A stretch of DNA of 64,000 nucleotides. Origin: Indolivaga capnocytophagoides DSM 22835 (GTDB lineage: Bacteria; Bacteroidota; Bacteroidia; Bacteroidales; Dysgonomonadaceae). Location: NCBI RefSeq assembly GCF_000426485.1, contig NZ_AUFL01000019.1:1-64000 (forward strand), written 5' to 3'. The notes beneath the pieces are model-generated. The model saw only the letters and a program-made list of their open reading frames with translations. It was not told where the DNA came from and ran no database searches. The position numbers and the translations under genes are program-made. This document shows, in pieces, positions 56,299 to 58,034 of the stretch (position 1 is its first letter; every line of letters begins with the position of its first letter).

Positions 56299-57687
56299 TT
56301 AGCCATTAGTAGGTATTTTTATAGTGAATGTGCTGCCTACGCTTACTTCACTCTCAACATCGATGATTCCTTTGTGCTTTTCGATGATTCTTTTAACATA
56401 GTTCAGCCCGATTCCATGACCTTTGATATTGGCCGTTTTGGCAACTCGTGTATATTTATCGAATATAACATTAAGATCGTCTGCAGCAATTCCCAATCCG
56501 TTATCTTTTACACTTATGCAGGTGTATGCTCCTTCTTCGTAGATTCTTATGTGTATATCAATTACAGCTTTCGAATATTTAATGGCATTTCCCAGCAAGT
56601 TAGAGACAACCTGTTCTATGTGACACTGGTCAGCTATGATATACGGATTTTTTACTTCGTTCACCACATCTACATCTATTGGTTTGGTTGTAGTGTCCAG
56701 AGCTTCATCTGCCAGGTCATAAACAACTTTCACAAAATCAAACTCAGTTTTATTGACTTCGAAGATACCTTCATCGTCCATAGCCAAACTTAATAGCATT
56801 TCTGTTTTCTCTGTCATTTTTGTAATTTCCAGATCCGCTATTTTCAGTAATTTGGATCTGCGGTCTCTGTCTCCTATAATCTTTTCGTTATCTAAAGAGC
56901 TGACAGCTTGTTTTAGAACAGATAGAGGACGTTTAAACTCATGTGATACTTCAGAGAAGAAGTCGCTTTTTAAGTGCGCTAATTTGCGTTGTTTAGACAG
57001 TGTTTTCAATTGGAAATATAAACAGTAAATACAAACTAAAGACAGGAGGAGCGACAATACTAACATCCATGCCATTTGGGGATATATTTTACTCATCGGT
57101 TCGATAAGTACAATACGTAAGACTTTAGTCTGCTTTATATTTAACGGCAGATTTTTGGAAGACAGTATACTCGACGGATGAGCTGTTGCCGGAAGAGTTG
57201 TTTCCAGAACTTTATTTGCCGACAGATCCACGATCTCTACATAAAAGCGTAGATTTATATTATTACGTTTAAGAGCGGAAGCTACTTCCTCGCTCATTTC
57301 TACAAGATTAAGTGGGTGAGTCTGACTGATAAATTCTTCAATAGCCAGATTTAATATTGCAGATGGAGATATCTGTTCGGTGTTCTTGGGTAGACTGTCT
57401 TTCTTAAAAAAGACAACATTTTTGCCTTGAATTGTATCCGGTACTTCCGGAGCATCATCAACCTTAATTTTAATCTTATTTTCTACATCTTTTTTTCCTG
57501 CATCAAGACGTTTATCTAGGCTGGTAGTATAAACTTCGTCTGTGAGTAAATTCAACTCACGTGTCAGAAGATTCATATTTGTCTGGAACAAACTATAAAT
57601 AATTCCTGCCTGAAATAAAAAGATAAGTATCACGAATACTATTGATACCCAGGTTAATAATTTATCTCTGAATGATACATTTTCCAT
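56299..57687 (-). CDS. Membrane sensor histidine kinase
   Basis: 462 aa. TM1 about 13-33, periplasmic domain about 34-205 without a fold I recognise, TM2 about 206-226. Cytoplasmic part: H-box with H249 (DFFSEVSHEFKRPL), N-box NLLGNAIKYSKA, G1 DNGLGI and G2 GHGIGLNYVKR. The N-terminal half of the sensor has several charged helices. The gene faces away from the 39-aa double-glycine peptide gene (171-nt divergent gap), suggesting the peptide may be its signal or a target; this is inference. Confidence 0.93.
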   Translation of the reverse strand: MENVSFRDKLLTWVSIVFVILIFLFQAGIIYSLFQTNMNLLTRELNLLTDEVYTTSLDKRLDAGKKDVENKIKIKVDDAPEVPDTIQGKNVVFFKKDSLPKNTEQISPSAILNLAIEEFISQTHPLNLVEMSEEVASALKRNNINLRFYVEIVDLSANKVLETTLPATAHPSSILSSKNLPLNIKQTKVLRIVLIEPMSKIYPQMAWMLVLSLLLSLVCIYCLYFQLKTLSKQRKLAHLKSDFFSEVSHEFKRPLSVLKQAVSSLDNEKIIGDRDRRSKLLKIADLEITKMTEKTEMLLSLAMDDEGIFEVNKTEFDFVKVVYDLADEALDTTTKPIDVDVVNEVKNPYIIADQCHIEQVVSNLLGNAIKYSKAVIDIHIRIYEEGAYTCISVKDNGLGIAADDLNVIFDKYTRVAKTANIKGHGIGLNYVKRIIEKHKGIIDVESEVSVGSTFTIKIPTNG

Positions 57688-57857
57688 AAATATTGTTTAT
57701 TCTTAAAGTAAAGATAAATATAAGAATATATTTTCGGTTATTGTAGTTAAATAGAATAATATATCAAGAGAAATATTAGAAAAATATTACAATTTAATTA
57801 TAAACGATGTCGTAAAACCTTGCTTTTTTTGTACTAAACAAATAAATAATTAAGGTT

Positions 57858-57977
57858 ATGAAAAAGACAGGATTGAATAATTTCAAACAATTGAACGCAA
57901 AAGAACTAAATAAGATTCAAGGTGGTATAAAATATTACATTGAAATTAATGGTTCAGTTGTTGTAGTAGAGATGTAA
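57858..57977 (+). CDS. 39-aa double-glycine leader peptide (bacteriocin- or pheromone-like precursor)
   Basis: ATG at 57858 (preceded by AAGG 4 nt upstream) to TAA at 57975-57977. The N-terminus FKQLNAKELNKIQGG has the hallmarks of a double-glycine leader: alternating hydrophobics (F9, L12, L17, I20), acidic E16 and G22-G23. Cleavage after G23 would release a 16-residue core, IKYYIEINGSVVVVEM, hydrophobic with beta propensity and no Cys. In other bacteria such leaders direct export by C39-peptidase ABC transporters; none is in the window. It is divergent from the kinase/regulator pair and followed by a terminator. It could be a bacteriocin, a signal peptide or a RiPP precursor. Confidence 0.75.
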   Translation: MKKTGLNNFKQLNAKELNKIQGGIKYYIEINGSVVVVEM

Positions 57978-57995
57978 GTGATTGTTAAGAAATAA

Positions 57996-58033
57996 TAAAA
58001 AGCGGTAGGATTTTTATACCCTGCCGCTTTTTG
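57996..58033. terminator. Bidirectional terminator between peptide gene and mrp
   Basis: AAAAAGCGG pairs with CCGCTTTTT around a partly paired AGG/CCC interior. A and T flanks allow action in both directions. Confidence 0.85.
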
Positions 58034-58034
58034 T

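Follow-up and report, generated by a model that had tools for sequence, protein, structure and literature searches.

Does a small double-glycine (GG) peptide act as the signal of the two-component system encoded beside it? This question is raised by a 39-aa open reading frame in the window, the 64,000-nt stretch of DNA that was analysed (G000:C16:1-64000, G000 being the genome it belongs to). In Gram-positives it is textbook knowledge that peptide pheromones can act through two-component systems. We favour the reading, at a probability of about 0.6, that the peptide is a ComC-like autoinducer exported by a C39-peptidase transporter and sensed by the divergent kinase.

The precursor consists of a 23-aa leader, MKKTGLNNFKQLNAKELNKIQGG, and, after the GG cleavage point, a 16-aa core, IKYYIEINGSVVVVEM. 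The leader scores above the cut-offs of two models. Pfam ComC (PF03047) gives 24.0 bits against a gathering cut-off of 20.4, and the NCBIfam bacteriocin leader model TIGR01847 gives 20.8 against 15.7. These matches bear out the frame with a GG leader and a 16-residue core that the first-pass annotation had read at this position. PF03047 also matches 9 of the 15 GG peptides that we aligned (E≤1). Under a strict leader motif, the window peptide is the sole such ORF of 25-75 aa within the 64 kb, and an ORF of this kind arose in 5 of 10,000 dinucleotide shuffles of positions 57688-58034.

Table 1. Features of the locus, with positions in the window
Feature	Position	Strand	Basis
OmpR-type response regulator, 226 aa	55503..56183	-	Response_reg and Trans_reg_C matches
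Sensor histidine kinase, 462 aa, HisKA and HATPase_c, two TM segments	56299..57687	-	Domain matches, hydropathy
Inter-TM region of the kinase, residues 38-200	57088..57576	-	Hydropathy
Divergent promoter region, 170 nt, common to peptide and kinase	57688..57857		Sequence, intergenic distance
GG-peptide precursor gene, 39 aa	57858..57977	+	ORF; ComC and TIGR01847 above cut-off; conserved in congeners
Leader, 23 aa, GG at its end	57858..57926	+	Leader models match residues 1-23 or 9-23
Core IKYYIEINGSVVVVEM, 16 aa, predicted beta hairpin with NG turn	57927..57974	+	AlphaFold2 strands; G32 invariant
Stem-loop between A and T runs, 3' of the peptide gene	58000..58033		Read from sequence

The peptide gene is divergent from the kinase gene, as had been noted; the gap is 170 nt rather than 171. 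A TAnnTTTG box is found within 110 nt upstream of 5 of 15 GG peptides, and no exact box occurs within 110 nt upstream of the window peptide start. With this distribution a conserved promoter is not claimed. Nor is a regulator-binding motif common to the loci, after a by-eye look at alignment A3. On the other side of the peptide gene, the stem-loop is, from its sequence, probably a terminator that also serves the convergent mrp-like gene. A comparable stem-loop follows the peptide gene in the congeners too.

Conservation was analysed in six genomes of the genus, five of them near-complete and the sixth 62% complete. A peptide search of the six matched in five at E≤10. The order mrp-like gene, peptide, kinase is kept in all five near-complete genomes (G000, G001, G002, G003 and G005). 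The sixth carries a kinase of the same type and a divergent 35-aa GG peptide, so that a GG peptide is divergent from a homologous kinase in 6/6. The congener kinases are 53-69% identical to the window kinase, and the congener peptides are 36-54% identical. The leader, with 11-14 of its 23 residues identical between the window and the four near-complete congeners, is kept better than the core in most pairs; between the window and G003, identities are 11/23 in the leader and 3/15 in the core. Of ten pairs analysed by the NG86 method, nine have a defined dS, and in each of these dN is lower than dS. Because dS is large and, in one pair, undefined, and the sequences are too short, this is only indicative of purifying selection on the peptide. 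Among 101 genomes of Dysgonomonadaceae, the peptide is confined to the genus except for G046 and G094.

The neighbours of the peptide are a kinase and, as the next gene, an OmpR-type regulator, in agreement with the first-pass annotation; the kinase is of the HisKA type. The sensor domain is somewhat shorter than the 170 residues given there. Hydropathy places the TM segments at residues 4-37 and 201-231, with about 163 residues between them, which presumably form a periplasmic sensor domain. A profile of this domain gave three matches among solved structures, the best with an E value of 0.054 and all to unrelated molecules; no solved relative was found. An AlphaFold2 model of the kinase, made with three sequences, has a mean pLDDT of 41 and is too low in confidence for use. 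Among NCBIfam models, the regulator matches best to RprY, of the RprX-RprY system of Bacteroides and Porphyromonas. However, its score of 130.8 bits is far below the cut-off of 370, and the regulator is therefore not an RprY equivalog.

The pairing extends beyond the genus. We collected 16 kinases from four Bacteroidales families, and 15 of them have a divergent GG peptide, at gaps of 85-598 nt. At the collected loci there is one peptide per kinase, always divergent, apart from three copies by one kinase in G102. With the peptide profile, additional pairs of a kinase and a divergent GG peptide came up in G046 (two loci), G094, G203, G480 and G102, and G005 yielded a second one. The three copies in G102 (L090:6259-6796) are tandem 41-aa hairpin peptides with nearly identical cores, QYIEIIIDGTIYRI(R/K)I, and one divergent kinase.

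A kinase profile (A6) was meant to lessen the circularity of this search. It was built from the sensor part of nine kinases, all of them first found through their peptides. Over the 101 genomes of the family it returned 8 kinases at E≤1e-25, and all 8 have a strict divergent GG peptide. Related kinases without the peptide, which would have spoken against the proposal, are thus not seen there. One pair, on contig C52 of G094, was reached through the kinase alone; its precursor is MKEKKKEKDYEVLSQEQLKKINGG, followed after the GG by GYWLTYTNSKGELQKVWIR. Over 392 genomes of the order, A6 returned 6 kinases at E≤8.2e-52. Five have a GG peptide, the one in G291 being new, and the sixth, in G467, lacks one. 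Weaker matches had a GG peptide in 1 of 23 cases, the second G005 kinase that was already known. Nine of the 12 kinases that form the main clade (see below) entered the sample through the peptide, and therefore only three are blind. Among all 16, three were found without use of the peptide, and two of these three have a GG peptide.

Control kinases behaved differently. A GG peptide is found at 0/6 other kinases of the window's own genome, counting those with 250 nt or more of available upstream DNA (23 had too little), and at 0/19 weaker kinase matches, with 3 more that had no callable ORF. These 25 control loci represent 24 distinct kinases, one of which is in both sets (L092, the same as L146). 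The search for small GG-leader genes next to homologues of the kinase, proposed in the first-pass annotation, thus yields 15/16 against 0/25. A generic GG leader beside any kinase was rejected on the control count.

In the kinase tree, 12 kinases form one clade with a support of 99/99. Eleven have a GG peptide, and the G467 kinase is nested inside. The other four kinases with GG peptides fall in two other places, one holding the two from G046 and that from G203, the other the second from G005. The branch of G046 is long and its placement is unsure. The nearest sisters of the second G005 kinase (L145, L147 and L129) have no GG peptide. The GG-peptide label requires four changes on the tree, compared to 12.4 in shuffles. 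Most of the sampled pairs share a common origin, and this counts against the autoinducer reading. A search of 392 genomes of the phylum with the peptide profile (A7) gave leader-type matches outside Bacteroidales, which we read as other GG peptides. In the non-Bacteroidales loci that were returned, a part of the matches with 1.5-kb flanks, no GG peptide is divergent from a window-like kinase. The family of G203, with six genomes, gave nothing beyond G203 itself.

The kinase-linked peptides are set apart by their cores. Cores of at most 20 aa occur in 12 of 15 of them, compared to 2 of the 53 other GG peptides that the same peptide searches returned. The mean fraction of beta-forming residues is 0.56 in the linked cores and 0.42 in the others. 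The linked cores share a strand-turn-strand pattern, and 13 of 15 contain an NG, DG or GG pair. The second glycine of the turn, G32 in the window peptide, is invariant in all 15 peptides of the A7 alignment. In an AlphaFold2 model of the window precursor, made with three sequences, strands span residues 25-30 and 33-38 on either side of N31-G32, at a low-confidence mean pLDDT of 62. This is consistent with, and not proof of, a beta hairpin in the window core.

The surroundings of the pairs were also compared. The window pair stands alone amid housekeeping genes. In G046, a pair stands at the head of a cluster that also encodes a C39-VKOR-thioredoxin protein and several Cys-containing GG peptides, and downstream of the second G005 pair are a radical SAM gene and a C39 exporter. 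Judged by gene content, these neighbourhoods would fit a role in controlling antagonistic peptides in some genomes and an uncoupled signal elsewhere. The G046 island (L191, G046:C131:12001-24967) contains repeated GG peptides of 68-75 aa, several with cysteines. TonB-type or secreted proteins lie between them, and the hairpin peptide and kinase pair are at the head.

Core size and surroundings bear on the main rival reading, which takes the peptide to be an effector, either a small bacteriocin or some other secreted peptide. It would then be an output, and the kinase-regulator pair would control its production while sensing, for example, envelope stress. GG peptides of Bacteroidales include real toxins, the bacteroidetocins (PMC6671954, available part). 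The divergent orientation would suit a peptide under the regulator's control, and the G102 array of three near-identical tandem copies is in keeping with a product gene. However, the other GG peptides that the same searches returned have far longer cores, and the mature peptides of bacteroidetocins, at 42 aa, are far longer too (PMC6671954, available part). In addition, the window pair has no immunity-like gene next to it, and the GG bacteriocin-like peptides of the G046 island are separate from its hairpin peptide. We therefore consider an effector role unlikely, and the most serious of the alternatives.

The autoinducer reading calls for an exporter. The first-pass annotation had reported none in the window and had suggested a search for C39-peptidase ABC transporters in the genome. 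The first point holds. A 731-aa C39 ABC transporter (C39, ABC_membrane and ABC_tran domains) is located on the same contig about 40 kb away, followed by an HlyD protein (G000:C16:98205-101708). At this distance it could serve other peptides. Peptide and exporter are about 14 kb apart in G002 and G005, and about 10 kb apart for the C52 pair of G094; in G291, HlyD and then a C39 ABC exporter follow within 3-4 kb of the peptide, the exporter at about 4 kb. A C39 peptidase is present in 12/12 genomes with the GG peptide, compared to 13/21 others (one-sided Fisher test, 0.015, with kinship ignored). The association is weak, the genomes are related, and the 21 comparison genomes were hand-picked before the C39 result rather than drawn at random. 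G467, which has a clade kinase without a GG peptide, gave no C39 match in its single contig (99% complete). Separately, in the four genus genomes that were inspected for it, a C39-like domain of about 141-161 aa is encoded on its own, upstream of the C39 exporter (L004:13358-13783 and counterparts in L214, L215 and L217). It lacks the N-terminal part of the family and is possibly an inactive docking domain.

We propose the following mechanism for the autoinducer. The C39-peptidase ABC exporter, most likely that at G000:C16:98205-100400 with its HlyD partner, would cut the precursor after the GG and release the 16-residue core, which would fold as a small beta hairpin. The core could then reach the periplasmic domain of the divergent two-TM kinase, in its own or a neighbouring cell. 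The kinase would change the phosphorylation of the OmpR-type regulator, and the regulator would control at least the divergent peptide-kinase promoter. A pheromone-like layout had been suggested from the sequence of the window. It is now supported in part, by conservation, recurrence in other Bacteroidales, short cores and co-occurrence with C39. Points that speak against it are the remote exporter in the window's own genome, the low-confidence kinase model, the narrow spread of the peptide within Dysgonomonadaceae and the sisters of the second G005 kinase that have no GG peptide.

Another possibility is that the peptide is a local feedback inhibitor or activator of the kinase, acting inside the producing cell or its periplasm without a cell-to-cell signal. 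The arrangement of one peptide per kinase, always divergent, would agree with it. In G467 (L151), a 42-aa ORF without GG ends 306 nt upstream of the kinase start and has a C-terminal strand-turn-strand-like stretch. Lacking the GG, it was not counted as a member of the peptide family. Its genome has no C39 match, and a peptide of this kind could act unexported. However, this ORF is a single case that may be chance, and a cytoplasmic peptide needs neither the GG leader found at 15/16 kinases nor the C39 peptidase found in all 12 such genomes. Local feedback appears improbable.

We give still less weight to a modified RiPP precursor, processed for example by a radical SAM enzyme and unrelated in role to the kinase. 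TIGR04149, a leader model for rSAM-modified RiPPs, gives some match (E≤1) in 8 of the 15 aligned peptides, and the second G005 pair is near a radical SAM gene. However, the window peptide scores 14.3 against the TIGR04149 cut-off of 25, and no modifying enzyme was seen near it among the 50-64 kb ORFs (by eye, not every ORF). Finally, the frame is short and known from its sequence alone, but a chance ORF is rejected, and with a functionless relic has a near-negligible probability, in view of the leader-model matches, the conservation in place in congeners, the recurrence and the 5 in 10,000 shuffles.

Among known systems, the autoinducer reading resembles the streptococcal pheromone systems ComCDE and BlpC-BlpHR. 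The ComDE pair consists of a polytopic kinase and a LytTR regulator. Shared features are a GG precursor of about 40 aa, a short core, a C39 ABC exporter and a kinase-regulator pair adjoining the peptide gene; in addition, the window leader is above the Pfam ComC cut-off. The window differs in its kinase, of the HisKA type with two TM segments and a presumed periplasmic domain, in its OmpR-type regulator and in its Gram-negative host. The window peptide is below the cut-offs of the NCBIfam equivalogs, with 20.6 against 50 for ComC and 14.4 against 70 for BlpC. The pair would work like ComC-ComDE or BlpC-BlpHR, but it is not a member, because the equivalog scores fall short and the types of kinase and regulator differ. 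Membership in ComDE or BlpHR was rejected on the two-TM HisKA kinase and the Trans_reg_C regulator.

In protein type, NisK-NisR of the nisin system is nearer than ComDE, with a peptide sensed by a HisKA-type kinase and an OmpR-family regulator. NisK is a two-TM kinase. NisR is assigned to the OmpR family in the available part of PMC8895600. Nisin is a modified lantibiotic that is toxin and signal at once, whereas the window peptide is separate, short and unmodified-looking.

Dirix et al. (2004) reportedly deal with GG peptides of Gram-negatives. Within Bacteroidales, the bacteroidetocins share the GG leader, the C39 ABC exporter and the order with the window system, and have leaders of 15-16 aa and mature peptides of about 42 aa with cysteines (PMC6671954, available part). 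In contrast, the window leader has 23 aa and its 16-aa core has no cysteine. The criteria for bacteroidetocins are at least 2 cysteines, a mature peptide of 35-50 aa and a thiol oxidoreductase nearby (PMC6671954, available part). This identity was rejected on core length and lack of cysteine, with no thiol oxidoreductase among the 50-64 kb ORFs (by eye). Bacteroidales RiPP clusters have GG precursors near C39 exporters, and one of them, BGC5, includes a kinase and a regulator, for which the authors raise signalling (PMC10352776, available part). BGC5 differs in its long precursor cores and its rSAM/LanC-like enzymes, and Dysgonomonas is absent from the available part of that text. As far as these partial sources go, bacteroidetocins and RiPP clusters have leader and exporter in common with the window system, and not core size or pairing.

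A literature search, mostly outside subscription journals and bioRxiv, where such a report may exist, gave no description of the pairing or of a Bacteroidota counterpart. This agrees with the earlier remark that the layout is little described in Bacteroidota. The loci together may represent an undescribed Bacteroidales class, a proposal that we regard as evenly poised. Its members would be C39-exported autoinducers of 13-20 residues with a strand-[N/D]G-strand hairpin, and each would be matched to a dedicated pair of two-TM HisKA kinase and OmpR regulator. They would switch on bacteriocin or RiPP clusters at some loci and form a stand-alone signalling pair in Dysgonomonas. If true, this would be a peptide signalling system of Bacteroidales with sequences short enough for immediate synthesis and testing. 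It would offer a route to ask whether and how Bacteroidales sense density and regulate antagonistic peptides. The search rule for more would be a GG hairpin peptide divergent from kinases of this clade.

Other GG peptides were also observed. G002 encodes two of 45-47 aa whose cores are related, and a membrane protein adjoins each of them (L055:6406-6549 and L056:6072-6209). One of these membrane proteins (L056:6227-6754) matches the Rce1-like/CPBP family PF02517, and the sequences make the peptides and membrane proteins a candidate bacteriocin with its immunity protein. At L068, L085 and L087 (G174 and G262), paired Cys-rich GG peptides of 78-83 aa are located by a membrane protein and are unrelated to kinases.
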